Source of the DNA: Globisporangium splendens
Taxonomy: Eukaryota; Oomycota; Peronosporomycetes; Pythiales; Pythiaceae
Length of the DNA stretch: 64,000 bases
Direction: 5' to 3'
Assembly (NCBI GenBank): GCA_006386115.1
Contig: VFIW01000002.1
Coordinates: 1,177,526 to 1,241,525 of the forward strand
Positions 18,166-46,505 of this stretch are shown one piece after another. Position numbers and translations under genes: made by a program. Numbering within the stretch: the stretch's first letter is position 1; every line of letters starts with the position of its first letter. Below the pieces are notes generated by a model. That model saw only the letters and a program-made list of their open reading frames with translations, was not told the origin of the DNA and ran no database searches.

Positions 18166-18769
18166 TGTAAGAGGCTATCCGAGACAGCCTCAAACACAGC
18201 ACGCACGATTGCGCTTGAGAGGAAGACTTGAGAGGAACTTGGCAAAAATGCAACTGAATTGAAATGAGCTTATGGTTCCTCACACTACATATAAAACACC
18301 ACTAGGACTCCTAGAGGTTTTATAACTAAAACCTAAACACACACAATAAAACCTATGAATCTGATATATAAAACCTTGGGTACACTGAGGTTGAACCTAC
18401 GGGATCTTCGAGAAACTTGAAGTACCGCGAAGATTCCCTGCGAAGTGGTTGGCTCACGCCACTCACTTCAGGTGGTAGAGACACGTCCGTCTCATCACCA
18501 GTGTTGTTTCCCCAAGTAGGAACCATCACTCACATGTCTCGAGTACTGTTGTGCGTAATCACGCCGAATCTCAATGATTGCGAGCGACCAACACTCAACT
18601 CAGACACAGATTGCTCTGACGTCAGACGATGACGTCACCTGTGCATGTGGGGATCACTTTTATGTGCTTCACCGAATATCTTCGCACCCACAATGCACTT
18701 CCACAAGGTGGTGTGTGACACACACACAAAGAGCCACCTTGCATGTAATGGCAGCCTTAGCCCATTACA
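18166..18769 (-). repeat. Solo LTR of gypsy family A, minus orientation
   Basis: 604 bases, near-identical over most of its length to the reverse complement of 20,682-21,290. Its ends are TGTAAG...CATTACA on the plus strand and it is flanked on both sides by TGGTC, a 5-base target duplication. No internal region remains on either side, so it arose by LTR-LTR recombination after insertion. Confidence 0.9.
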
Positions 18770-20527: not shown

Positions 20528-20681
20528 AGCCATTACATGAAGGTGGATCTGCCTCCAGATCTAGTGTGGAACACACCACCTTCAGGATGCATTGCAGAGA
20601 CACAAATAACAAAGGGATCACGGTAATACAGTCCCACATGCACGTGTGACGTCATTTGATGACGTCACGAGTGTTCTCTGT
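20528..20681 (+). repeat. Divergent LTR fragment upstream of gypsy A
   Basis: The order of landmarks copies the U3 of the adjoining LTR: CCATTACATG, CACACCACCTT, CCCACATGCAC, then two TGACGTCA palindromes, but identity is much lower. Gypsy A appears to have inserted into an older related LTR. The outer boundary is uncertain. Confidence 0.5.
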
Positions 20682-21290
20682 TGTAATGGGCTAAGGCTGC
20701 CATTACATGCAAGGTGGCTCTTTGTGTGTGTCACACACCACCTTGTGGAAGTGCATTGTGGGTGCGAAGATATTGGGTGAAGCACATAAAAGTGATCCCC
20801 ACATGCACAGGTGACGTCATCGTCTGACGTCAGAGCAATCTGTGTCTGAGTTGAGTGTTGGTCGCTCGCAATCATTGAGATTCGGCGTGATTACGCACAA
20901 CAGTACTCGAGACATGTGAATGATGGTTCCTACTTGGGGAAACAACACTGGTGACGAGACGGACGTGTCTCTGCCACATGAGGTGAGTGGTGTGAGCCAA
21001 CCACTTCGCAGGGAATCTTCGCGGTACTTCAAGTCCAAGTTTCTCGAAGATCCCGTAGGTTCAACCTCAGTGTACCCAAGGTTTTATATATCAGATTCAT
21101 AGGTTTTATTTATGCATGTTTAGGTTTTAGTTATAAAACCTCTAGGAGTCCTAGTGGTGTTTTATATGTAGTGTCAGGAACCATAAGCTCATTTCAATTC
21201 AGTTGCATTTTTGCCAAGTTCCTCTCAAGTCTTCCTCTCAAGCGCGAGCGTGCGTGCTGTGTTTGAGGCTGTCTCGGATAGCCTCTTACA
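20682..21290 (+). repeat. 5' LTR of gypsy A
   Basis: 609 bases, starting TGTAATGG and ending CTCTTACA. Contains TGACGTCA at 20,812-20,819 and 20,825-20,832. Two bases after the end a primer-binding site starts: TGGTAGCACTTCG (21,293). Copy of the solo LTR at 18,166 and, up to about its position 460, of the LTR at 34,473. Confidence 0.9.
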
Positions 21291-24164: not shown

Positions 24165-24551
24165 TGTAATGGGGCCACCCATTACATGGGTTCCCGGTTC
24201 AGGAGAGTGTGGGTTTTCTCCCACATGGGTTTTACCACCTCTTCCGAACCCACCCACGACGTACAGTTGGAGACACATTAATATGTGTCACTCATGAACA
24301 CTGTACATAGCCATTTGCATATTAGCCAATAAGACTAAGCCGTTAAGATTTAATCCCATTGGATGATAGTCGGACTGGACATCCGATTATCTACCAATGA
24401 GAGACACCGTAGGTTTCAGTCACTACGATTGCATGTTAGCATTTTAACGTTTTAATTCACTTCTCAATTTGCATGGTAACGCGCAAAGCTCCCTTCCTTT
24501 CACCTGCGCTTCCTCAACGCACGTGTACGTCGTGTAACGAGTCCCGTTACA
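24165..24551 (+). repeat. 5' LTR of gypsy C
   Basis: 387 bases, TGTAATGGGG...CCCGTTACA. The first 22 bases fold on themselves (TGTAATGGG, loop, CCCATTACA). About 11 substitutions from the 3' LTR by eye, plus a 36-base length difference. Confidence 0.92.
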
Positions 24552-24601
24552 CCTGGTAGCACTTTGTGGTCCGTCCAACCACAGAGCGGAAGCCGTCAGT
24601 A

Positions 24602-25661
24602 ATGAGTACTGACGAAGAACCGATGATGAATCTCGAACCCGCGGAAACCGCGAGTGCGACGATCAACCGGGAGGATTGCCTCCACTTGAGTGATCTCGAG
24701 TGGAGTGCCTTGCAACGACTGAGGAAGGTCGTTGGCGAAATGGCAATCTTCGCCATCCTCGCCAGCTGCCCGCTGGAGCAGCATCGCCTCACGGCGATAG
24801 GGTTCCTGCAGAAGGAGGCAGAAGACCGTGGAAGAGAAGCAACCCGCGCAGTTACTGCGCAGGTATAACCCCCACGACAAAAGTCTGTGTGGCTTGAAGT
24901 CGCGAAGTATGGCGGAGGAGACAATGAGCCTCTCCTCCGATGGCTCGTCGAAATCGATGCCGCCATTCGCTCCGGACAAATCTACGATCCGGAGCAACAG
25001 GTCGATTTCACGATGTCCAAGCTCGCTGGGAGAGCGGAGAGCTGGGCATTCCGTCGGCGAATGGCCGACCACCACTGCGTCCGCACGCTTGCGGAATTCA
25101 AAAGCGACATTCGAGCCACCAAAGTCGGAATTCCGTACTCGCACGGAATTCCTTGAGATCCGACAGGACAGACGCGACCTTCACGTGTATATCCAACATG
25201 CTCGATACTTGGTATCAAGTATCGTGTCTGAGCCAATCGACATGGCGACGCAAGTCGCCACGTTTATGAAAGGTTTGGTGGATGGTCCCGTCAAGACCTA
25301 CCTGTTCCGGGAATACCCGGAAACGCTAGAGCAAGCAATCGCTCTGGCGCTTCAGGAAGACTTTAGCGCGAAGCAAGCACGGCTTCACGCGTTCCCTTAC
25401 CGCGCCGCGCAGTTCCGACACGCGAGACCTCCTCCACGTTACAGTGGATCCGAACCAATGGATCTCTCGTTGGTTCAAGCTCCGGCGGCTCCGAAGAGAC
25501 CCGTCGACAAGCGCAAGCTGCGGTGCCACCGCTGCCAGAAACTGGGGCACTTTCAATACGAGTGCCGAGCGGCGCAGCCCGCTCCCCGCGTCCGAGACAC
25601 ACATCGGACGACTTCTTCGCGTCCAACGCACGAAGAATCAAAAAACGTCAACCACCAGTAG
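24602..25661 (+). pseudogene. gag of gypsy C
   Basis: ATG at 24,602. Capsid part GGGDNEPLLRWLVEIDAAI aligns with element B. TAA at 24,866-24,868 interrupts, and a single-base shift near 25,105 moves the frame, after which FEPPKSEFRTRTEFLEIRQD and the CCHC knuckle CHRCQKLGHFQYEC are in frame to the stop at 25,661. Confidence 0.85.
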
Positions 25662-25680
25662 ACGCGGGGCGCTCTACTGG
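25640..25680 (+). promoter_or_regulatory. -1 ribosomal frameshift site, gypsy C
   Basis: A_AAA_AAC at 25,640-25,646, eight-base spacer, stem CCAGTAGA (25,655-25,662) with TCTACTGG (25,673-25,680). Compared with element A the last stem pair changes from G-C to A-T on both arms, so pairing is preserved. Confidence 0.8.
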
Positions 25681-28600
25681 CGAATATGCGTCTGGTGTGA
25701 TCGTGGTGCACGAGACGCAAGCCCCCAGCGTGCATGACGCGCGCTGCTGGATTACCACGACTGCGGAGGAGCCGAGAGATCGGCTCATCCAACTTGAGAT
25801 AACCGTAGAGGGATTTACGACCCCTTTGCGGGGACTGCTAGACACGGGTGCGTCGAGCAACTTAGTTCCATCGCATGTCGCTCGTGCACTAGCGAGAGTA
25901 ATTTCGGAGGAATCACGTTCCTCCGAGTCGAAGATCACCGTGCGGTTGGCAACAGGTGCCACCGCCACGGCGGAGAAACACGTGACACGGCTTCGTGTCA
26001 CGCATGATGGACGCCAAACGGAAGGAGACTTCATTTGGCTGGATTTAGATGACAAGTTCGATGTCACCCTTGGAATGCCATGGCTGAAGAAGTATCAGCC
26101 GACCATCGATTGGAATCGACAATCGATCAGTTACCCCGCTATGAAGCGGAACAAGACTAACCGCCCTCTGGTGCGCAACGCGCTGTCGGTTAACAAACAT
26201 GATGCAAGGGTGTGCGATGGCCCCCTTAGCACGATGCCCGATGGAGAAGCCACCCGAAAGTCTAAAGGACAGACTTCGGTTGCTCATCGCTCTGTTCAGA
26301 AGAGCGATGATGAAGGAAAGGTACCGCCAATGGAGACCTCCGATCAAGGCTCCTCATGCGAAGTCATCAGTGTCATGGTCACTGATGAAGATGGATCTCA
26401 TATTCATGAGATGGCGTTAGAAGACCCTCCGAAGGACGCTTCGGAAGTGGTAACGCTACCAATCATGAGCCAGAAACGGTTCATGAAAGAACTGCATCGA
26501 GGCACCCTCGAGCAGATTTGTTACATCGCTCCTCGGGAGGATCGATCAATGCCGAGTCGGCAGTATAGAGACACCCACTCGATGAATGTTTCCTTGCGTC
26601 GTCATCAGTGATGGACACTGATGTGCTCGACGAGCCAACGAAGAAGGAACGATTTCAGGCTCAGGGATGGGAATCCCTGAAGAACAGTCTATTCTACGGA
26701 CTATTGAAGGAGTACGAAGACGTATTCCCAGAAGAAGTTCCCAGTCGTCTTCCGACAGACAAAGGAGTTCGGCATGAGATTGATCTCAAGCCGGGAACAA
26801 AGTACTGCGTCACGAGGCAATGGCCACTGCCTCGAGAGCAAGTCAAGGTGATCGACGAGTTCTTTGAAGCTCGCCGTAAAGCGGGCCAAGTGTGCGAGTC
26901 GAATTCTCCGCGCCGCAGCCCCACCTTCTGTGTCAAAAAGGCCACAGGAGGTTGGAGGATCGTGCATGCGTTCAACAAGTTGAATGCGGCAACAATCCCG
27001 GCGCAAACGCCGATACCTCGCAAAGATGTCATCATTGACAGCATGCAAGGTAGTACTATCTTTAGTACGATCGATTTGAGAGATGGGTTCTATCAAATCT
27101 TGATGCGTGAGAAGGATGTCCCTTTCACAGCAGTCAGCACCCCGAGTGGGATGCTGTGGGAGTGGCTTGTAATGCCACAGGGGCCAACAAATGCTCCCGC
27201 CACGTTCAATAGATGCGTCACGCAACTATTACGTCCAGTGCGAGACTTCGCACCAAGCTATTTTGACGACGTGTTCATACACAGTCGTGCATCGGATGCT
27301 GCATCCGATGTGGAAGTGCACAAAGAGCACCTCCAACAGCTTCTCGACTTGATGCGGAAGCACAAGCTGTACGCCAACATACAAAAGTGTATGCTTGGTG
27401 TTGATGAGATCCCCGTTCTCGGTTGCTTTGTCGGCAAGAACGGAGTGCGTCCTGATCCCGAAAAGATCAAGGCGATCAACGACTGGCCCGTCCCAACAAG
27501 CCAAAAGGATCTTCGCAATTTCCACGGGCTTGCGACGTATCTCCACAAGTACTCGCAGAACTATGCGGGTATCATCCGACCTCTTTCATCATTACTGAAG
27601 AAAGACGTCGATTGGAAGTGGTCCGACGAATGTCAAGAAGCATTCGTCAAGGTGAAACGCAGTCTCATGGAAGCTCTGGCTCTCGCGATCGCCGATCACG
27701 AGCGACCATTCTATGTGGTCTGTGATGCATCCGACTTTGCAATCGGATGCGCGCTCATGCAGCGCGACGATGCAGATCGAGAACGCGTGATCTGCTATCA
27801 ATCGCGTCAGCTGAGCGCAATTATCCGGTTCATGACAAGGAGTTGCTTGCCATGAAGTACGCTCTTACGAAGTTCAGAGTGTATTTGCTCGGAAGTAAAC
27901 GGTTCACTGTTTACACTGACCACGCTTCGCTGCGCACCGCAGTGAAGTCGCCACATCTGTCGCAAAGAATGGCCCGATGGCTTTCTTTCTTTGCGGAGTA
28001 CGAGCTTGACGTCGAGTACAAACCCGGACGGTTCAACGTGATCGCGGATGCATTATCACGTCGCCCAGACTTTGAGTCGAAAGCAAACGACTCAAAGGAA
28101 GACCGTGTGATGGCAATCGCACGAGAAAGCACGCCGACATCGTCGCTCCTTGACGATATCAAAAGAGCGTATGCGACAGACAGCAACATCAGTCGACTTG
28201 TTGCCCACTTGTCAGACCCGTCTGATAAGTCGCTCAAGGCGTTGGATCCGGCTCAACGCGCTCGTCTGCATCGTTATGAGTCATACAACGATGTGTAGTA
28301 CTACCGGACGACGACAGCGACGCACCGCGCACTGCCGTTCCAAACGACAGTGATCTTCGCAACCGTGTGTTCTTTGAGTACCACGACGCGCCTTTCCGCG
28401 GTCATCCAGGACGCGAGAAAACGTATCTCGCGCCTTCCCGCGACTTGTATTGGTCCCACCAATACAAGTGGGTCCGCAAATACGTACGCGCGTGCGAAGT
28501 GTGCCAGCGCGTCAAGCCAGCACCGGTGACCAACGCACCGCTGCGATCACTACCAGTCCCGACGGACTGTTCGAAGTCAGTCTCGATGGATTTCATCTTC

Positions 28601-29984
28601 GGTCTTCCTGCTGACTCCAGCAAGAAGACTGGCATCCTCGTCATCGTGGATCGCTTCAGTAAGATGGTCCATCTCAGTGCTGTCCCTGCTAGCGTCACCG
28701 CAATGCAGACGGCGCAGATATTCCTGGATTCTGTGTTTAGGTTACACGGAATGCCCACTGAAATCGTGTCGGACCGAGATCCACGATTCACAGCTGCCTT
28801 CTGGCAAGAGTTGTTCCGACTCTTGGGCACTCAGCTCAAGATATCGACAGCTGATCATCCGCAGACAGATGGTCAGACCGAGCGTGTAAACCGCACGCTC
28901 GAGGATATTCTGCGCAGCTATGCGCATTCATTCACTCACTGGAATGAATGTCTCCCTCTCGCAGAGTTTGCAATCAACAACTCTGTGCATGCCTCAACTG
29001 GACACACGCCATTCTACGTGAACGCCCTCAGGCACCCACGTGTTCCGTCCATCCTCGGTGGGATGTCCCCTCCGTCGGTGACATCTCCCTTGAGTGGGGG
29101 AGGAGTCCGCGAAGCAGCTGCTTCGGAACAAGCGAAGAGCGCGGAGATCTCGCATCAACATGAGCAGGTAACTGCTCACGCGGCGATCGTCGACAAAGAC
29201 ATCGTTACAACAGTGTTGCAGCGGCAAGCTGTCATCCGCTTCGTCCGCGATTCCATCGCCGACGCAGTGGATAGTCAGAAGGAGCAAGCGGACAAGAGTG
29301 GCCGCGAGAACACGAATGAATTTCAACGAAATTCGTTTGTTTTATTATCGACTGCTAACCTACCTAACAGAGTGGTGAGCAGTGACAGCAACAAGTTGCT
29401 GCCAAGATACATTGGCCCTTTCAAGGTCCTTGAAAGGATTGGGGACGCATACACGTTGGAGCTTCCTCCGACCATGCGTCTACACCCGACGTTCTACGTT
29501 GGGCGTCTCAAAGCGTATCATCGCCACGATGACTCGTTGGTCTCTTCCTCTTCAGGAGACCGTGGTCGCGAAGGATCCCAAGCACAAGCTTGTGATCAGC
29601 CTCGAGCCTCGAGCCTCGAAAGTCGTCCCTCGAGCCGCTCGTGCTTCGGGATCATCTCGCTTAGCTCGGCCCGAAGTCGGAGAACCTCGTTCTCCCGCTC
29701 AGCGTACTTCAGCCGATCAAGAAGACGCTGATCACTCTGAGGATGCGCCTCAGAGTCACGAGCAGGTCTTCCCTCCTCCAGCTCCTCCGTTGCGAGACTC
29801 CGAGGGGAACCAACGCTGGATCGTGGAGAAGATACTTGCTCATCGCGATCGATCGTCGCTAGGGAAGAAGGAGCGCGTCTATCGCGTTCGTTGGCTTGGT
29901 TACCCGCCAGATCGAGATACCTGGGAACCGGCCGCGATGCTCCAAGCCGATGTTCCTGGCTTGGTGCAGCAGTACGAGAGTTGA
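25646..29984 (+). pseudogene. pol of gypsy C: protease, RT, RNase H, integrase, chromodomain
   Basis: Protease GLLDTGASSNLV; RT with KATGGWRIVHAFNKLNAAT and active site SYFDDVFIHS; RNase H YVVCDASDFAIGCALM; integrase with zinc region YKWVRKYVRACEVCQRVK, core SVSMDFIFGLP, FVDRFSKM-type, ADHPQTDGQTERVN; GPY/F-like HPTFYVGRLK; chromodomain RVYRVRWLGYPPDRDTWEP. Breaks: ~26,600, ~27,825, a TAG at 28,296 next to a frameshift, and one at ~29,604 where CCTCGAG is repeated in tandem, so slippage in the repeat explains the shift. Confidence 0.9.
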
Positions 29985-31125
29985 CGCTAATCGACTCTCG
30001 CTTCCACAACTCGCGGATTCGATCTTGCAATCCGCGAGGAAGCATCACGCCGTTGTAACCACGAAGGTGCTCCTCAGTCAACTGAGGATCATCGCTGGTG
30101 CAGATGCGGCAACCCCTCGGTGTGGTCTTGACACCACAGGGAACCCCCAGATCCATGCAGCCTTCATGGATCGCCAACAACTTTCCAAAGGCATTGTGCC
30201 GGAGGAATTTCTCTCGATTATCCCGCAATCGAGAGATGCATTTCGCAGCGTCTTCGTTGAAATTCACAACGAAGGCACTCCACGCTTGCGAAAGAAACAG
30301 CGCTTGTTTCTCAGCGCTGTGAGACTTCTTTGACTTCGACCGACCGTCGAAGAATCACATCGAATGGACCAAATCAATGTAGAATTCCTCGCGCGCCTTT
30401 GGATGGAAGTTCTGTCGAAGGACGAAGCCATCGCCCTTGACAGCACTCACATCGTACAGCGCGTGAGTGCCCGCACGCTGGGTGCCACGATGTGCACGAA
30501 CTCAATTGGGTTTGGGTGCCCACAAATGTCTCCAACTAGAAGGGACGAAATCCATCCCTTCAGAAGGACCCGTTACCGGATCCTTCTCCCCAGCCGGAAA
30601 GGCAAGATAGCGTGGCGACTCGCTATTCCCCGATGACGCAGTAACCTGCGCATCAGATTCGGATTCCACATCGAAGAGCAAGTCCTCGAGTGGATCGACA
30701 GCTTCCAGTTCACAATTGGACGCGTCCAGCGAGAGAAGGATATTTCTCGCTACATTCACCAGGTCGGGATCAGCTGACGCTAATCCTTCCCGACCGAGAT
30801 TTTCCATCGTGTTGGCAGATGCCGCGCTTTCCGACGCTCCGACGTCGGAAATGGCAACCGCCACGGTGGATCCGCTCGTTTCTCCGTGAGGAGATCCCTC
30901 CTCACGACGTTTCTTCCGCGTAGGCTCATTCAAGAGGGCCGCGGACGACGGACGTTTCGCTTCGTTTCGTTTGAGATTCGAACGGTCAACGGAAGAAGAC
31001 TCGGCTTCTTCCTCCTGATCGTCACGCACGACATTCGTCGTGGTGCTACTCATTGGAGTGTTGCAAGGAGTCACCTCCTCGCTACTCGACTCGTAGTCAA
31101 CAGCATCGCTGTCGATCGAAGACAT
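29596..31125 (-). pseudogene. Antisense ORF of gypsy C (two in-frame TGA codons)
   Basis: Reading leftward from ATG 31,125, one frame of 509 codons is broken only by TGA at 30,504-30,502 and at 30,357-30,355. N-terminal part: acidic/serine-rich with basic motif TRKKRREEG. Middle: ALYDVSAVKGDG then REEFYIDLV, matching GLYDISAIRKK and RRFYKELFF in the antisense ORF of element A; further on AWSAFVVNFNED matches SWKTFVRLENEH. End: charged helix QRLLDRLKYAERENEVLRLR, predicted coiled coil. Its last ~390 bases overlap the chromodomain region of pol on the other strand. Confidence 0.65.
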
Positions 31126-31335
31126 TTGTACGAGGTTCACCTCGCACAGCTTGCGGCGTCTGGAAAGCTCTCTGTTGGGCACGGCGCACACTGAGAACTG
31201 AGCCCGCAAGACTCAGTGCTCTGCCTTCTGTGACCAGTTCCTCCGAACAAGGAAGAACACCAAAGAACACAGAAGAACACAAGATGGATTGGTCGCGCGC
31301 GTTTCTACGTGACCAATCGCTTTACGGGGGGATGG

Positions 31336-31758
31336 TGTAATGGGGCCACCCATTACATGGGTTCCTGGGTCAGGAGAGTGTGGGTTTTCTCCCACATGGG
31401 TTTTACCACCTCTTCCGAACCCACCCACGACTTACAGTTGGAGACACATTAATATGTGTCACTCATGAACACTGTACGTAGCCATTTGCATATTAGCCAA
31501 TAAGACTAAGCCGTTAAGATTTAATCCCATTGGGTTATAGTCGGATTGGACATCCGATTATCTACCAATGAGAGACACCGTAGGTTTCAGTCACTACGAT
31601 TGCATGTTAGCACTTTAACGTTTTAATGCACTTCTCAATTTGCACGGTAATGCGCAAAGCTCCCTCCCTTCTCCTTGGACACAGTGTTATCACTGTGCCC
31701 TTCCTTTCACCTGCGCTTCCTCAACGCACGTGTACGTCGTGTAACGAGTCCCGTTACA
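31336..31758 (+). repeat. 3' LTR of gypsy C
   Basis: 423 bases, same ends as the 5' copy. It carries 36 extra bases near 31,666-31,701, within CCCTCCCTT/CCCTTCCTTT sequence, which looks like loss by recombination between short repeats in the 5' copy or a duplication here. Confidence 0.92.
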
Positions 31759-34071
31759 GTTTTCCTTCTTTGCTGAGTATAACTTTGTTGTACACTACAA
31801 GCCCGGCAAGTCCAACATACTTGCTGACGCTTTGTCAAGACGTCCGGACTATGCTCCGAAGAACAAGAGTGACGACACGAACGGAGCGTGCCGACTCTGT
31901 GAAGACGTCAACGCGATTGCTACGGGAATGACAAGCACAGTCCAAGAAGAAATCACTGAGGGCTACAAGCAAGACGAAGCATGTCAAGAACTGATCAAGT
32001 ATTTCAAGAATCCCTCAGATAAGGCACTCCAAAACCTCCCATCAAGAGCAAGATCGCGTGTTCACCGTTACAGCATGCACAATGAGCTGTTGTATTATGC
32101 GGTTGACGAAGGGGATCCAGCGAGGATCGTTGTCCCCAACGACGAAGGTCTGCGTCATCGACTCTTGTACGAGTATCATGACGGTCCTTCGAGCGGCCAT
32201 CTCGGACGTGAGAAAACGTTTCTCAACTTGCCTCGAGATTACTACTGGCCACACATGTACAAGTGGGTGCGCAAGTATGTGAGGACTTGCGAGGTCTGCC
32301 AAAGAGTGAAGCCCTCTGGCTCTACGCAGGCTCCACTTCGTTCATTACCTGTCCCTCAGACAGTTGGAAGTCTGTGAGTATGGATTTCATATTCGGACTT
32401 CCAAGAGACAAACACGGACGCAATGGCATCCTTGTGTTTGTGGACCGATTCAGCAAGATGGTCCATCTTGCGCCTGTTTCGGACGAGATCTCTGCTGAGA
32501 AGACTGCCAAGGTCTTTGTAGACGTCGTATTCCGTCTACACGGACTACCAGTCGAGATCGTGTCTGACCGTGACACCCGTTTCACGTCCAAGTTCTGGCG
32601 TGCACTGTTCGGACTTCTGGACACCAAGTTGTCCATGTCAACAGTGGCACACCCTGAAACGGACGGTCAAACAGAGCGAGTGAATCGTGTCCTTGGAGAC
32701 GTACTGCGCAGCTACGCGACGTCTTTCAAAGAGTGGAGCGAGTTTCTCCCTCTTGCCGAGTTTGCGTTGAACAACTCCACGCATGTCTCAACAGGTCACT
32801 CTCCATTTTATGTGAACTATGGCATTCACCCTCGAGTGCCTGCTTCCATAAACGGTGAGGTCTCTACCTTAAGTGGGGGAGGGACTCCGGCTCATGGAAA
32901 CAAGCCGAAGTCGTCTTACGACCTGAATGCTGCTTCCGAGTTGAAAGCCAATTTTGACTCGATGAAACCCCTTGACGACCTAACAAGTCGTGAAGAGCAG
33001 CAAGTCGATGACTTTATCGTGAGGAGACAAGCCGTTGTGAGGTTTGTTCGAGACGCAATCGCAAAGGCTCAGGATCTGCAAAAGGAACAAGCAGACAAGA
33101 GCGGAAGGAAGAACAAGCAAGTTTATAAGATCAACGATCTTGTATTGCTTAGCACGGCGAACCTGCCTGAACATGCAGTGTCCAACTTGGGAAGCTCGAA
33201 GCTTCTGCCAAGGTTCATTGGACTGTTCAAGGTAGTGAAATGCAATGGGGATGCCTACACGCTAGACATACCTACACGCATGCGTCTACACCCAACATTT
33301 TATGTGGGTAGACTAAAGCCTTACCTTCCAAGTGGATCTGCGGATCCTACGAGATCTTCCACAAACGATCGAGCTGATCGTGAAGCTTCTCCACTTGATT
33401 GCGAAGAGCAAACAGCTCATCGCTCTGGAGATTCTTCTCGGCGTACAGGAGTTGCAGGACGTCGAAGGATTGGTCCTTCACTGTCTCCAGCGCTTGAAGA
33501 CGAGAATGGTACTCACCGCGAAGTACCTTGAGAGCCGAACCTGCATCTTCCACAGAGCGCAAAAGGCGATCGTGAGCCAACTCACGAGACTTCTCGTTCT
33601 TCTGGAGTCGAACAAGTTCGTCCTGAACCTGTTGGAACCGTTCCTCATAACGGGACTCCAAAGCCGAACACTGGGCAGAACCTTCTGTCAGATCGTCGAT
33701 CTTCGACTCATGATCGGCGACAAGGTTCTCGAGACTCTCGCAGCGTTCCTCAAGCGTCGAACAACGCTGCTGCAGCGCCTCGATTTGCCCACGATGAGCA
33801 CTCTTCCACTTCCAGAGTCGCTCAATCGTTTTCGCGTTCAACCCCACCTCCTCTGATCGATCATCAGGGAGAGCGCCGTTGGATCGTTGAGTCGATAGTA
33901 GATCATGAGGATCGATCGACTCGTCGTCGAGGAGAGAAGTCGTTGAACCGTCAACGCTTCTACAGAGTCCGGTGGCTTGGCTATCCACCGGACTCAGACA
34001 CGTGGGAACCTCGAGAGACTCTTCAGTCTGATGTTCCCGACGTGGTTCACAGCTACGAGCAGAGCTTGTAG
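31759..34071 (+). pseudogene. pol of gypsy A, 3' part: RNase H end, integrase, chromodomain
   Basis: Resumes A exactly after element C: FAEYNF-type RNase H end, ADALSRRPDYAPKN, then integrase (YKWVRKYVRTCEVCQRVK; SMDFIFGLPRDKHGRNG; HPETDGQTERVNRV) and GPY/F block HPTFYVGRLKPYLPSG. A one-base loss near 32,358 shifts frame; TGA at 33,529-33,531 replaces the CGA of element B. The chromodomain (RFYRVRWLGYPPDSDTWEP) ends at 34,071. From ~32,360 onward identity with B is far higher than before that point. Confidence 0.9.
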
Positions 34072-34396
34072 TGCTCTTGCGAGCACTAGAACGACGAGAG
34101 CCAAGCTCTTTATGGTCGTTCTCGAGCGTGCCTCCTAGGTTCCCTAGCAAACGCTCGACAAGATGCTCGTTCTCGAGTCGGACAAACGTCTTCCACGACT
34201 CGAGCTTCGCTGTGCTGGACTGGCCTGGATCGTCGCTGCCGGACATCTTGCGCCAAAGGAAGAACAACTCCTTGTAGAACCGACGTCCTCCACGCTTCTT
34301 GCGAATAGCGGAGATGTCGTACAAGCCGGGAGTCGTCCGCTGCCGCTTTGGCTCGGGCTGTTCTTCGCGCTTCGCTTGGTCGCTTGATCGCTTCAT
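33347..34396 (-). CDS. Antisense ORF of gypsy A, intact, coiled-coil protein
   Basis: 349 residues from ATG 34,396, which lies ~60 bases inside the polypurine tract, to a TAG at 33,347. N-terminus is basic and nuclear-signal-like (PEPKRQRTT), then GLYDISAIRKKRGGRRFYKE and LESWKTFVRLENEHLV. Residues ~190-349 are a long predicted coiled coil with leucines at heptad spacing in EALQQRCSTLEERCESLENL. It overlaps the integrase linker and chromodomain of pol on the opposite strand. Antisense codon position 1 faces sense position 1. The frame is open although the sense frame has been broken, which argues against simple mirroring. No known family recognised; function unknown. Confidence 0.6.
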   Translation of the reverse strand: MKRSSDQAKREEQPEPKRQRTTPGLYDISAIRKKRGGRRFYKELFFLWRKMSGSDDPGQSSTAKLESWKTFVRLENEHLVERLLGNLGGTLENDHKELGSRRSSARKSTTSSARSCEPRREHQTEESLEVPTCLSPVDSQATGLCRSVDGSTTSLLDDESIDPHDLLSTQRSNGALPDDRSEEVGLNAKTIERLWKWKSAHRGQIEALQQRCSTLEERCESLENLVADHESKIDDLTEGSAQCSALESRYEERFQQVQDELVRLQKNEKSRELAHDRLLRSVEDAGSALKVLRGEYHSRLQALETVKDQSFDVLQLLYAEKNLQSDELFALRNQVEKLHDQLDRLWKIS

Positions 34397-34472
34397 GGTC
34401 AATTGGAAAGTGAGAGCGGGTGCCTCTTCCGAAAGAAGTAAAGTCCGTGATGGAACTTTAAGGGAGGGATGA

Positions 34473-35114
34473 TGTAATGGGCTAAGACTGCCATTACATG
34501 CAAGGTGGCTCTTTGTGTGTGTCACACACCACCTTGTGGAAGTGCATTGTGGGTGCGAAGATATTGGGTGAAACACATAAAAGTGATCCCCACATGCACA
34601 GGTGACGTCATCGTCTGACGTCAGAGCAATCTGTGTCTGAGTTGAGTGTTGGTCGCTCGCAATCATTGAGATTCGGCGTGATTACGCACAACAGTACTCG
34701 AGACATGTGAGTGATGGTTCCTGCTTGGGGAAACAACACTGGTGATGAGACGGACGTGTCTCTATCACCTGAAGTGAGTGGCGTGAGCCAATCACTTCGC
34801 AGGGAATCTTCGCGGTACTTCAAGTTCAAGTTTCTCGAAGATCCCGTAGGTTCAACCTCAGTGTACCCAAGGTTTTATATATCAGATTCATAGGTTTTAT
34901 TGTGTATGTTTAGGTTTTAGTTATAAAACCTCTAGGAGCCCTTGGGGTTCATTTGTAAGTAGCGACAGGAACCATAACCATTTTTAATTCAGTTGCAAAT
35001 TTTCCTCCAAGCCCTCAAGTCTTCGTTCCTCCCTCCAAGTCGGGAGATCGCTTCCTCTGGCACAAGCGTGTGTGCCGTGTTTGAGGGACTGTTGTGGAAC
35101 AGCGCCCTCTTACA
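34473..35114 (+). repeat. Shared hybrid LTR of gypsy A (3') and gypsy B (5')
   Basis: 642 bases, TGTAATGG...CTCTTACA. Preceded by A's polypurine tract and followed by B's primer-binding site TGGTAGCACTTCG (35,117). Up to ~34,938 it is very close to the LTR at 20,682; after CTCTAGGAG the similarity drops sharply, so the right third comes from a different LTR subtype. Confidence 0.88.
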
Positions 35115-39200: not shown

Positions 39201-41026
39201 AGTCTTTCCCGGGATTACTACTGGCCACACATGTACAAGTGGGTACGCAAGTATGTGAGGACTTGCGAGGTCTGCCAACGAGTGAAACCCTCTGGTTCCA
39301 CGCAGGCACCACTTCGTTCATTGGCTGTCCCATCGGACAGTTGGAAGTCTGTGAGTATGGATTTCATATTCGGACTTCCGCGAGACAAACACGGACGCAA
39401 TGGCATCCTTGTGTTTGTGGACCGATTCAGCAAGATGGTCCATCTTGCGCCTGTTTCGGACAAGATCTCAGCCGAAATGACTGCCAAGGTCTTTGTAGAC
39501 GTCGTATTCCGTCTACATGGACTACCAGTCGAGATCGTGTCTGACCGTGACACCCGTTTCACGTCCAAGTTCTGGCGTGCACTGTTCGGACTTCTGGACA
39601 CCAAGTTGTCCATGTCAACAGCGGCACACCCTGAAACGGACGGTCAAACAGAGCGAGTGAATCGTGTCCTTGAAGACGTGTTGCGCAGCTACGCGACGTC
39701 TTTCAAAGAGTGGAGCGAGTTTCTCCCTCTTGCCGAGTTTGCGTTGAACAACTCCACGCATGTCTCGACAGGTCACTCTCCATTTTATGTGAACTATGGC
39801 ATTCACCCTCGAGTGCCTGCTTCCATAATGGGTGAGGTCTCTACCTTAAGTGGGGGAGGGACTCCGGCTCATGGAAACAAGCCGAAGTCGTCTTACGACC
39901 TGAATGCTGCTTCCGAGTTGAAAGCCAATTTTGACTCGATGAAACCCCTCGACGACCTAACAAGTCGTGAAGAGCAGCAAGTCGATGACTTTGTTGTGAG
40001 GAGACAAGCCGTTGTGAGGTTTGTTCGAGACGCAATCGCGAAGGCTCAGGATCTGCAAAAGGAACAAGCAGACAAGAGCGGAAGGAAGAACAAGCAAGTT
40101 TATAAGATCGATGATCTTGTATTGCTTAGCACGGCGAACCTGCCTGAACACGCAGTGTCCAACTTGGGAAGCTCGAAGCTTCTGCCAAGGTTCATCGGAC
40201 CGTTCAAGGTAGTGAAATGCAATGGTGATGCCTATACGCTAGACATACCTACACGCATGCGTCTACACCCGACATTTTATGTGGGTAGACTAAAGCCTTA
40301 CCTTCCAAGTGGATCTGCGGATCCTGCGAGATCTTCCGCAAACGATCGAGCTGATCGTGAAGTTTCTCCACTTGATTGCGAAGAGCAAACAGCTCATCGC
40401 TCTGGAGATTCTTCTCGGCGTACAGGAGTTGCAGGACGTCGAAGGATTGGTCCTTCACTGACTCCAACGCTTGAAGACGAGAATGGTACTCACCACGAAG
40501 TACCTCGAGAGCCGAACCTGCCTCTTCCACAGAGCGCAAAAGGCGATCGTGAGCCAACTCACGAGACTTCTCGTTCTTCTGGAGTCGAACAAGTTCGTCC
40601 TGAACTTGTTGGAACCGTTCCTCGAAACGGGACTCCAAAGCCGAACACTGGGCAGAACCTTCTGTCAGATCGTCGATCTTCGACTCATGATCGGCGACAA
40701 GGTTCTCGAGACTCTCGCAGTATTCCTCAAGCGTCGAACAACGCTGCTGCAGCGCCTCGATTTGCCCACGATGAGCACTCTTCCACTTCCAGAGTCGCTC
40801 AATCGTTTTCGCGTTCAACCCCACCTCCTCTGATCGATCATCAGGGAGAGCATCGCTGGGTGGTTGAGTCGATTGTTGATCATGAAGATCGACCGACTCA
40901 TCGTCGAGGAAAGAAGCAGTTGAACCATCAACGCTTCTACAGAGTTCGGTGGCGTGAGTATCCACCGGACTCAGACACGTGGGAGTCTCGTCAGACATTG
41001 GAGTCTGATAACCCCGAGTTCCACAA
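36268..41026 (+). pseudogene. pol of gypsy B: protease, RT, RNase H, integrase, part of chromodomain
   Basis: Protease ALVDTGASNNFV; RT KATGGWRIVHAFNKLNDAT and active site SYFDDIFVHS; RNase H FHVVCDASDYAIGCAL and YTDHASLRTAV; integrase zinc region YKWVRKYVRTCEVCQRVK, core SMDFIFGLPRDKHGRNG and HPETDGQTERVNRV; HPTFYVGRLKPYLPSG; chromodomain RFYRVRWREYPPDSDTWES. A frame change between 37,002 and 37,074 and TGA 38,721-38,723 (Arg in copies C and D) are the only breaks. The last residues after 41,026 are copia sequence read in the same frame. Confidence 0.9.
40249..40998 (-). CDS. Antisense ORF of gypsy B, N-terminus lost
   Basis: 249 residues from the first ATG left after the fusion at 41,026. 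Nearly identical to the coiled-coil half of the ORF in element A (ERLWKWKSAHRGQIEALQQR; LVADHESKIDDLTEG), and it runs about 25 residues further because a TAG in A is not present here. Same phase against pol as in A. The missing N-terminal half would have lain beyond the fusion point. Confidence 0.55.
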   Translation of the reverse strand: MSDETPTCLSPVDTHATELCRSVDGSTASFLDDESVDLHDQQSTQPPSDALPDDRSEEVGLNAKTIERLWKWKSAHRGQIEALQQRCSTLEEYCESLENLVADHESKIDDLTEGSAQCSALESRFEERFQQVQDELVRLQKNEKSRELAHDRLLRSVEEAGSALEVLRGEYHSRLQALESVKDQSFDVLQLLYAEKNLQSDELFALRNQVEKLHDQLDRLRKISQDPQIHLEGKALVYPHKMSGVDACV

Positions 41027-41085
41027 GCGCACCAAGCACATCGACATACGCTACCACTTCGTACGCGAGAAGGTCAAAGACGGCA
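41027..41085 (+). mobile_element. Scrap of a plus-strand Ty1/copia element (RNase H end)
   Basis: Encodes RTKHIDIRYHFVREKVKDG, which matches KHIDIKFHHIRDEVKSG at the end of pol in copia element E, so it is the copia RNase H C-terminus. It is fused in frame to the chromodomain of gypsy B on the left and stops at the LTR of D on the right. Confidence 0.8.
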
Positions 41086-41621
41086 TGTAACCGGACACTT
41101 CCGAGTTACGCAGCACGGTACGTGTGTGAGAGAAGCGTATGCAACGCTTCTCTCAAGGACTCTGTTCCGAGAGCGGTTGCCTGCTTCCTGCAGTGCAACA
41201 ATCGGTTACCTATAGGTCTCTATAGAGTAACCGTCGATAACCAAAGGCTTTAGTTAACGGTAAAAATCGAACTGTTTATTTGTTGGAGGTTGCCCTCTGT
41301 AGAACAACCTGGATTATCTTTATGTAACTATGAACAATAGCAATCTCAAATGTAATTACTCCCCATGGGGAAATGAGTGGCTATGAAAGACTAACGCTAG
41401 TTGTCTTATGTGATTGGATGAAATGCATGTTCAATTATATCCAATCGGAGGCGCCGTCACTCAGACTGGCTGCCGGCTCAACCGTGAAGGTTCGAGCAAG
41501 TACGACGAACCTCATGGTTCGGTCTTAAACTTGTTGCGCGTACTCTATGTACCGCAAGGTTCGGTTTGGTTGTGTGGCACAACACAAGTGCGTAACCATG
41601 TTACAGTGTAACCCCGTTACA
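41086..41621 (-). repeat. 3' LTR of gypsy D
   Basis: 536 bases; on the minus strand it starts TGTAACGGGGTTACA and ends CGGTTACA, the same terminal style as A and C. Just outside on the element side is a polypurine tract (minus strand TTTAAGTGGGGGGTGG, 41,622-41,637). The copy at the other end of D is not in the window. Confidence 0.75.
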
Positions 41622-41669: not shown

Positions 41670-42093
41670 TGTTAAAGGTCGAAAGCGGTCGATGGACGGA
41701 ATCTAGAAGAGAAGAGCTTGAGATGATAAAATGGAAAGTGAGATTGGCTTAGAGTGTGGTTGCGCCGCAGTGCATGGCGCAAGCCATCACCGTTGGACAC
41801 AAACACTGATGTGTGGATGCGAGCTTCGATCGCTCGCAGCCACAAGAAACTAGTGGTCACTACGCTCCTAGCCACACAAAGTGGGTGGGTGTGGGTACCT
41901 ACGCTAGCCAATCAAAATGCAGAGTCCTACGCTGTCACACTTCGGACCTTATCCCATATGCATGATTACGCACTGTGCAGATGATGATGTCATGGGGTCG
42001 ACAGTCATCTGCACATGAGTGCTGGTCCCGTTGCTGAATGCACAGCGTGGGCACAAGCGCGGCACAGTGTGCCAGCGACTTGGTACACTTAAT
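41670..42093 (-). repeat. 3' LTR of copia E
   Basis: On the minus strand it runs from ATTAAGTGTACC to TTTAACA. The stop codon of pol (TAA, 42,091-42,089) lies within the first bases of the repeat. Direct copy at 46,082-46,505. Confidence 0.9.
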
Positions 42094-43975: not shown

Positions 43976-46077
43976 GCGCTCCCCTCGATGTCATACACGC
44001 GATACGCCTTCGACGCTTCTTCGTAGCCGACGAAAAGACTGGGTCGCGACTTCGCGTCCCACTTGAGCCGCTTCTCCTTCGGCGTCAGAACGTACGCCAA
44101 ACAGCCGAAAACACGCATGTGCTTGACACTCGGCTTGGACTTGTGCACCATTTCGAACGGTGTCTTCGTGTCGGACTTGGGCGATGGCAGGCGATTTTTG
44201 ATGTAAATCGCCGTCATCACAGCTTCGGCCCGGAACGACTTGTCCAAGCGCGCGTGGTGGAGCATGCATCGACCGATGGTCACGATAGTGCGAATCGCGC
44301 GCTCTGCAGTGCCGTTCGCCTGGTGCGCGTACGGAACCGTCACTTGCTGCATGATGCCGCGATCTGCATAGAACTGCTTGATCGAGTTCGTCGCGAACTC
44401 CTTGGCCCCGTCATGGCGAACGAACTTGACACGAGCGCCGAACTGGTTGCCGACTTGTACGATGAACTTTTTGAGCATCGCCTCGCTGTCGGACTTGTGC
44501 TCGAGGCAAAAGCCTTGCATCGAGCCACTGCTCTCGTCGACGATCAGAAGCAAATACTTGCTTCCACCGATGCTGTCGACTTCCATCGGGCCACAGATGT
44601 CGAAGTGCAGCAGTTCGAAGAGTCCGAAACTGCGCTTCTCGTAGTTGGTCTTGAATGGTTATTGGACCATTTTGCCTTGCTGGCAACCGCGACGCGCAGC
44701 CAAATCCGGCGCAAAGTCTGCGTCCTTGACCATGCGCTTGTCGACAAGTTGGCGAAGTGCTTGCACCGACGCATGACCCATGCGCTCGTGCAAAGTCGAC
44801 GCCGAGTTGACCTTCGTCGCCACCATCGCAGACTTCGGTGCCGAACTCGCTGGAACACGGAGCCAGTAGAGACCGTCGACAAAGTCGGCAGTCGCGACCA
44901 CCTTGCGCGAGTTCTTCATCAACACGTTCATGCTCGGACCGTCGAACACGACTTGGAACTTGTTCGCCTTGTTGATCTGCGGGATTGAGAGCAGGTTCTT
45001 GCCGATAGTTGGCACGAACAGCACGTCGTTCACCTCGAGATCGCGCACTCGACCGTTTGGCAGCGCGATCCGCTCGTGCACCGTGCCGACGCCGAGGATC
45101 TTGGTCTTGTTCCCGTTCGCAACGACCAAATCGCCATGGTCGTCCTCGTCCAGGTGCACAAACTTGGACTTGTCGTTGCAGATGTGGTGCGTCGCGCCAC
45201 TGTCGATCGCCCACATCCCGCACTTGTCGTCCTTCGCAGCAGTCATGCTGCATTCCATGGACACGACGAACGCCAGTCGCGTGTCATCGTCGTAGTCGGA
45301 GTAGTCGTCGCGCTCGACGTAGTTGGTCCGCTTGCCCGCGCAGCCGCCCGTGCGCTTGCGCCTTTGCTGCTTGTTCTTGGTCCAGCACCGGTCGACGGTG
45401 TGGCCGACCTTGCCACAAAACGAGCACACCCAAGGCTCGTTCTCGGCAGCAAACGCTTTCGCACGATCTTCGGTCTTGATCACCTTCTTCTCACCCGAGC
45501 GCTTGATATGCTCGTTCGTGAGTGCTTGAACGACGTCTTGCGTCTTGAGATCCGCGTTCCGCATCTCCAAGTTCAGCACGACGTTGTCGTAGCTCTTGGG
45601 CAGACTGCGTAGCAGACAGATTGCCACGTCTTCGTCCTCCATCTTCGCGCCGATGCTGACGAGCTTGGCGTGGATATTGAGAACCTCGTTGCAGTGGTGC
45701 AACAGATTGTCGCCTTCCTTCATCTCGATGCTGAACAACTGGCGTTTGAGGAAGATGCGACCCGCCTTCTGCGAGCCTTCGTGCATCGCCTTCAGTCGTC
45801 CCCACGCGACCCACGCCTCTTCGCAGTCGTCGACGATGTGATGGTACTCAGCGTCGATGTGCAGCAGGAGCAGGCCGAATGCGACGTTGTTCGTACGAAT
45901 GTACTCGTCCTTGATGCGCGCGTCCGTGAACGTGGGTGTCACCTCGCGGTTCACCACGTCCCACACGGACTTGGTCAGGAGCACGCCACGCATGTAGCGT
46001 GCCCACGTCGCGTAGTTGTCGCCGTTGAACTTGGCGATCACGGTATTCTCAGTCATGCTTGTCGTGCTTGGACTCAT
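43969..46077 (-). pseudogene. gag-protease-integrase of copia E (one stop)
   Basis: Gag (UBN2-like) from ATG 46,077 or 46,056: [17 protein letters not shown]; zinc knuckle [14 protein letters not shown]; protease [12 protein letters not shown]; integrase zinc region [15 protein letters not shown] with CQQGK; core FDICGPMEVDSIGGSKYLLL and YAHQANGTAERAIRT. TAA at 44,661-44,659 interrupts between CQQGK and the core. All integrase acidic residues appear in place. One long gag-pol frame is the copia norm, so restoration would need only the two changes noted. Confidence 0.92.
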
Positions 46078-46081: not shown

Positions 46082-46505
46082 TGTTAAAGGTCGAAAGCGG
46101 TCGATGGACGGAGTCTGGAAGAGAAGAGCTTGAGATGATAAAATGGAAAGTGAGATTGGCTTAGAGTGTGGTTGCGCCGCAGTGCATGGCGCAAGCCATC
46201 ACCGTTGGACACAAATACTGATGTGTGGATGCGAGCTTCGATCGCTCGCAGCCACAAGAAACTAGTGGTCACTACGCTCCTAGCCACACAAAGTGGGTGG
46301 GTGTGGGTACCTACGCTAGCCAATCAAAATGCAGAGTCCTACGCTGTCACACTTCGAACCTTATCCCATATGCATGATTACGCACTGTGCAGATGATGAT
46401 GTCATGGGGTCGACAGTCATCTGCACATGAGTGCTGGTCCCGTTGCTGAATACACAGCGTGGGCACAAGCGCGGCACAGTGTGCCAGCGACTTGGTACAC
46501 TTAAT
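46082..46505 (-). repeat. 5' LTR of copia E
   Basis: 424 bases, direct copy of 41,670-42,093. Ends in TTTAACA next to the primer-binding site. Confidence 0.9.

Follow-up and report, generated by a model that had tools for sequence, protein, structure and literature searches.

Element A, a chromodomain-bearing Ty3/gypsy retrotransposon of the plant-pathogenic water mould Globisporangium splendens (draft genome, PMC7163027), carries in its 3' end a long reading frame that runs against pol. The question that this locus raises is whether the frame is a gene or a by-product of the coding sequence opposite it. A preliminary description of the window, by which we mean the whole stretch of 64,000 nucleotides analysed, had proposed an intact antisense gene. 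Its 349 codons are confirmed, and stop codons and substitutions across copies indicate that positions 33347-34396 of the reverse strand almost certainly hold a genuine protein-coding accessory gene of the element, antisense to pol. The parts of the locus are as follows.

33347..34396, reverse strand: antisense gene, 349 codons, MKRSSDQ... to ...RLWKIS*, with ATG at 34396-34394 and TAG at 33349-33347
34073..34396, reverse strand: codons 1-108, outside pol, encoding a basic start resembling a nuclear localization signal (NLS) and a conserved helical N-terminal domain
Opposite 33880..34041, reverse strand: antisense amino acids 119-173, facing the pol chromodomain
33347..33879, reverse strand: antisense amino acids 174-349, long helix or coiled coil, facing the SH3-chromodomain linker of pol
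33136..33324, forward strand: SH3_Tf2-1 domain of the pol integrase, ending just beyond the antisense stop
About 33880..34041, forward strand: pol chromodomain (PF00385), coordinates transferred from element B with an offset of 6977
33529-33531, forward strand: premature pol stop in A
34069..34071, forward strand: natural pol stop in A, TAG

The start and codons 1-108 sit between the pol stop and the polypurine tract, and the remaining codons overlap pol. The premature pol stop had been reported before and is present as described.

The assembly searched comprises 53.3 Mb in 195 contigs. A DNA search scored the best 40 of 375 candidate places and a protein search the best 96 of 905, and both are lower bounds. 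We compared 40 copies, namely A and L009-L047; the truncated B was left out, L001-L008 were dropped as duplicates, and L054, cut in the other orientation, stands outside all counts, its antisense match being stop-free. Antisense stops as frequent as in other frames had been set beforehand as the result that would refute a gene. The counts go the other way: the whole antisense frame is stop-free, in frame and begins with ATG in 31 of the 40 copies, against 0/40 stop-free copies for each other frame. By segment, it is free of stops in 32/40 copies outside pol and 38/40 in the overlap, with nine stops in the former over all copies and two in the latter, while the remaining five frames have stops in every copy in both segments (for the pol frame, mostly just the natural stop). 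Further divergent copies, of which 11 of 12 were counted, behave alike (stop-free in 11/11 outside pol and 9/11 in the overlap). The 151 substitutions between A and L031 were also simulated by Monte Carlo with three models of 3000 runs each, and under every model 0.4-1.4% of the runs ended without an antisense stop. Copies A, L009, L037 and L040 have kept the antisense frame despite a broken pol, possibly by chance.

Selection on the encoded protein was assessed by the ratio of nonsynonymous to synonymous substitution rates (dN/dS), skipping codons with gaps or stops; L013 was left out of this pairwise comparison only. Outside pol, four divergent pairs (L056 with A, L031 or L058, and A with L051) gave 0.28-0.37 in the antisense frame and 0.67-1.07 in the shifted frames, and six close pairs (5-14 differences) gave antisense values of 0.32-0.59. 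Within the overlap, pol second positions face antisense third positions. Overlapping 60-codon windows of A and L031 from amino acid 170 on showed antisense dN/dS of 0.11-0.34 and pol dN/dS of 1.7-3.3, and the linker windows of L031 and L056 were similar (0.11-0.36 and 1.2-3.0). Upstream of the overlap, pol dN/dS was 0.07 for both pairs; as a control, the antisense phase continued beyond the antisense stop gave 1.5-3.8. Substitutions between A and L031 fell at pol positions 1/2/3 as 42/72/27 in the linker and 17/13/81 upstream (p about 3e-17), and those between L031 and L056 as 43/73/33 and 19/10/81 (p about 1e-16); kinship is ignored in both p values, and the two comparisons share L031. Replacements between A and L031 were also milder in the antisense frame (mean BLOSUM62 -0.14 vs -0.98 in pol), and 13 of the 20 coil differences between A and L009 are antisense-synonymous, with 18 replacing a pol residue, a pattern of antisense constraint. 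Judged by these substitutions, the antisense protein sequence is shown to be kept by selection over deeper divergences, and in the integrase-chromodomain linker the antisense gene is shown to be more constrained than the overlapping pol. The signal appears to stem mainly from the deeper split, and the stretch opposite the chromodomain seems constrained mainly through pol. The comparison of dN/dS in both frames, which the preliminary description had proposed, therefore supports an antisense gene outside pol and in the linker.

Two starts are available to this gene. Upstream of 34396 the frame stays open to an ATG at 34666 within the 3' long terminal repeat (LTR), for 439 codons in all. In nine of ten divergent copies of the L048 type, the matched frame has 1-2 stops upstream of the equivalent of 34396 (the tenth, L054, has none over its matched part there), and the MKR(S/P) start is shared. 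The ATG at 34396 is therefore the better start.

Two further elements in the window bear on how widespread the gene is.

40249..41016, reverse strand: antisense remnant in element B, codons 120-349, with start and stop both lost
About 24165-31758: element C, nested inside A, with its own LTRs from 24165 and from 31336
29596..30267, reverse strand: related antisense gene, partial copy in element C

B is a second copy of the element, 3'-truncated at about 41016. Its open reading frames (ORFs) encode RVP_2, RVT_1, RT_RNaseH, H2C2, rve, SH3_Tf2-1 and Chromo in that order, that is, the protease, reverse transcriptase, RNase H, integrase and C-terminal chromodomain of chromodomain Ty3/gypsy elements. 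The copy of the gene previously noted in B is open over 249 codons as stated, extending 25 codons beyond the position of the lost normal stop. It is a truncated remnant rather than a full gene: codons 1-119 are gone, and it therefore has neither the start nor the N-terminal domain. By eye, B pol passes at 41010-41090 into a Copia RNase H-like tail, an apparent junction of two elements.

Comparison of families indicates that the antisense gene is not peculiar to A, since similar genes occur in the C, L067/L065 and L068 families. A search with the C copy of the window hit 71 genomic places, a figure that counts fragments and six distant matches, and an intact C-type copy, L060, carries an antisense gene of 536 codons. 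Outside pol, L060 compared with four other copies gave antisense dN/dS of 0.29-0.43 and 0.88-1.58 in shifted frames. Opposite the chromodomain, C-family pol is constrained (0.12-0.16), and in the linker the values are 0.26-0.40 for the antisense frame and 0.39-0.80 for pol, equal in one pair (17-29 differences). In the L067/L065 and L068 families, similar antisense genes lie beside a pol that matches B and C pol by pieces at 36-77%. A, C and L067 share the same overlap phase, worked out arithmetically from coordinates, and their antisense stop lies at most 32 nt from the end of an FYVGRLK.Y motif; this landmark was not found in L068. Several families of elements are thus shown to have similar antisense genes in a matching position.

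The N-terminal domain links the families as well. Two profiles were built only from proteins with the N-domain pattern (67/76 A-type and 11/16 C-type). The A profile placed 14/16 C-type proteins (E 0.00095-0.38) above the best unrelated one of 374 window ORFs (0.46), and the C profile placed 5/5 A-type sequences (E 0.014-0.04) above the best unrelated window ORF (2.4). Beyond the genome, 16 metagenomic relatives are 40-72% identical, most with the same start. In an alignment of 13 sequences, all but P0066 retain the start, and the pattern FF.WR.....DDP.Q.......SW..FV.LENE recurs with few exceptions. NCBI matches form 59 clusters whose listed members total 277, and G. ultimum also has C-type antisense proteins. 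The AUGUSTUS run of the depositors, with transcriptome hints, predicts many such genes (PMC7163027), which is prediction and no proof of transcription. In the L060 protein (amino acids 320-342) and the L067 type, a possible zinc-binding H..C...C...C..C was seen by eye; the A type is without it.

The predicted protein has two structured parts. The model has a mean predicted local distance difference test score (pLDDT) of 72.4 and a predicted template modelling score (pTM) of 0.28, with pLDDT <50 at amino acids 1-20 and 88-175. Helices are modelled in the N-terminal domain at 38-51, 61-76 and 80-86, and a single 168-residue helix spans amino acids 181-348 with pLDDT mostly 90 or more. The low-confidence stretch at 88-175 therefore lies opposite the chromodomain and the coil opposite the pol linker. 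The coiled coil with heptads first proposed from the leucine spacing holds up: the final 170 residues contain 54 heptad windows, against a shuffle mean of 4.7.

Promoter-like and LTR sites lie just beyond the start.

34398..34413, reverse strand: core promoter TCACTTT-CC-AATTGAC resembling an initiator (INR) plus flanking promoter region (FPR), one base before the ATG
34460..34472, forward strand: polypurine tract-like AAGGGAGGGATGA, by sequence inspection
34473, forward strand: start of the 3' LTR of A, opening with TGTAATGG, by sequence inspection
20679-21234 and 34470-35024, forward strand: LTRs of A, mutual match 93%
34603..34623, strand not assigned: a pair of TGACGTCA palindromes within the LTR, spaced by 13 bp, a candidate upstream element for either strand

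Passages of PMC3599244 give the oomycete consensus as YCAYTYY for the INR and MWTTTNC for the FPR, with a 2-nt spacer. The motif before the ATG has an exact INR, the 2-nt spacer and an FPR matching at 6/7 positions, and a core TCACTTTNCAAT stands directly before the ATG in 42/51 copies. A related INR+FPR pattern has four mismatch-free matches in the window. Exact motifs of this kind also occur on the reverse strand at 41729-41741 and at 46141-46153, the latter preceding by 64 nt an ORF of 472 codons that starts at 46077. The TGACGTCA palindromes, which we take to be sites of the cAMP response element (CRE) type, occur nine times in the window where 1.9 are expected, and eight of them form pairs 13 bp apart. 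These four pairs start at 18617, 20647, 20812 and 34603, in or near LTR sequence. A pair spaced by 12-14 bp lies upstream of the antisense gene in 43/51 copies.

Together, these features suggest a mechanism. Leftward transcription of the gene would begin at an INR+FPR core promoter of its own next to the polypurine tract, which is fairly likely, and LTR sequences, the paired TGACGTCA sites among them, would act as upstream control. The product of the gene may enter the nucleus by means of its basic N-terminus and form dimers via the coiled coil, and its small N-terminal domain may contact DNA or a chromatin partner; the protein would thereby regulate either transcription from the LTR or the element's integration. 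A nuclear regulatory role is plausible yet tentative on these features, and feedback on the LTR specifically is a possibility that we rate as rather unlikely. The combination of accessory gene and inferred regulation is, as a whole, very probably the best explanation. A bolder combination, by analogy, is doubtful: an ancient family of antisense regulators in oomycete chromodomain gypsy elements with an HBZ-like nuclear coiled-coil product made from the promoter beside the 3' LTR. In such a family, order and disorder would complement each other (the coil opposite the free linker, the disordered stretch opposite the chromodomain), feedback would act on the paired CRE-like sites of the LTR, and the origin would be independent of HBZ.

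Several observations weigh against this account. The gene is known here from its sequence and not from a transcript or protein, the antisense proteins showed no resemblance to any known DNA-binding family, and the position of the INR+FPR motif would leave only about 15 nt of 5' untranslated region. Cross-family N-domain scores are weak, with a best E of 0.00095 and reverse values (0.014-0.04) under HMMER's inclusion line. Outside pol, one shifted frame falls below the antisense dN/dS in 2/6 of the close pairs, and codon-position counts alone are non-significant in three divergent pairs (p 0.07-0.16). In the overlap, the stretch opposite the chromodomain is pol-driven (A-L031 windows from amino acids 110 and 140), antisense constraint is slight in A-L056 (0.97) and L048-L057 (0.68), and only 1/7 of the L031-L015 coil differences is antisense-synonymous. 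L058 and L031 show pol constraint only, their 22 overlap differences being 2 synonymous and 20 replacement in the antisense frame (3.1). The copies are also related and mosaic, and the pairs are therefore not independent. In L048-L057 and L058-L059, the N part and the coil part look like members of separate subfamilies, pointing to recombination among elements.

Among the alternatives, the one that survives best would cast the protein as a cofactor of integration or nuclear import, one that might for example guide the integrase-chromodomain complex, rather than as a transcription regulator. The NLS-like residues and coiled coil fit this role, and in three families the end of the antisense gene lies at the integrase SH3 domain; a shared position need not mean a shared complex, however, and we consider this role unlikely. 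A self-restriction factor limiting copy number is improbable. Yeast Ty1 p22 acts in this way on Gag, as outlined in parts of PMC8458377, a coiled-coil oligomer is likely here, and the four copies with broken pol retain the antisense frame, possibly by chance, but Pfam scans of the antisense protein gave no Gag similarity. That the antisense RNA and not the protein is functional, for example as double-stranded RNA with the sense RNA, has been proposed for plant elements in passages of PMC7264820 and would suit the promoter-like motif; selection on the encoded amino acids makes it very improbable. Equally remote is capture of a host gene in antisense orientation, for which no supporting point was found, though no full search for a stand-alone host homologue was made: five of the six distant own-genome matches were examined (C97:28599 omitted), of which four lie beside gypsy pol and one beside Copia-like sequence, and A, C and L067 have position and phase in common. 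A passive frame, open only because the residues and codon choice of pol leave no room for stops in the antisense phase, is least probable of all and already contradicted by the present results, for although the chromodomain-opposed stretch is under pol constraint and some close pairs look pol-driven, 108 conserved codons lie outside pol, linker substitutions peak at pol second positions and pol-weighted simulated change yields about four antisense stops on average.

The accessory gene that we favour has known counterparts. Accessory ORFs in antisense orientation are an established feature of plant elements and have been reported for Boty of Botrytis, according to passages of PMC7264820, PMC11963269 and PMC8365987. 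Plant examples of the aORF-3R kind listed in PMC7264820 are Grande gene23, reported there as nuclear with its own promoter, RIRE2, Retand ORF4 and PvRetro13 ORF2. As described there, they are antisense additional ORFs between pol and the 3' LTR; the gene here is alike in this and is likewise kept in most copies. It departs from the described layout in that about 240 of 349 codons overlap pol, in its oomycete host and in its proteins, which are unrelated as far as compared. TRP28/Transposase_28 (PF04195), the domain criterion for Retand-type ORFs, was not among the E<=1 matches of the antisense proteins scanned, and the word overlap is absent from the main text of the Retand paper. The gene brtn of Boty-like elements in Botrytis cinerea is, by its description in parts of PMC7264820 and PMC8365987, likewise an antisense additional gene in a gypsy-type element.

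HBZ of human T-cell leukaemia virus type 1 (HTLV-1), originally offered as the comparison, is a less close parallel than the aORF-3R known from LTR retrotransposons of plants and fungi (PMC7264820). HBZ and APH-2 resemble the present gene in being antisense at the 3' end and encoding a coiled coil. The HTLV-1 LTR has sites bound by CREB-type factors, as stated in part of PMC10186651, whereas A has CRE-like motifs only. The basic leucine zipper domain (bZIP, PF00170) stays below its cut-off here (11.2 bits vs 27.6, E 0.42, zipper half only, in P0001; E 0.15 in P0017), the likely start lies outside the LTR, and homology is not claimed. Chronos of oomycetes is also a Ty3/gypsy element with a chromodomain, and the main text of PMC5348765 on it has no occurrence of antisense. 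As to the second, archaeal/plant-type RNase H of Chronos, the matches listed for the two B pol ORFs were only of the RT_RNaseH type, with no dedicated search. Neither word searches of the open-access literature nor the main text of PMC5348765 yielded a description of an oomycete antisense retrotransposon gene, in agreement with the original statement that none was described for oomycete gypsy elements. Antisense ORFs are on record from plants and Botrytis, so their kind is not new; what appears new as far as searched is the protein family, the oomycete lineage and the reciprocal deep overlap with pol.

That the protein has been kept intact points to a hidden gene in these mobile elements, probably one with a regulatory role. 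To our knowledge, it is rare for antisense overlap genes to be backed by evidence of selection from the two frames. The present elements provide such evidence, through many copies and from more than one family: the sense gene is more constrained in one stretch and the antisense gene in the next. For antisense genes of this kind, whose role in plants is described in PMC7264820 as not yet known, the elements offer a system in which that role could be tested. Oomycetes would join the lineages with antisense retrotransposon genes, with a recognisable protein family to look for.
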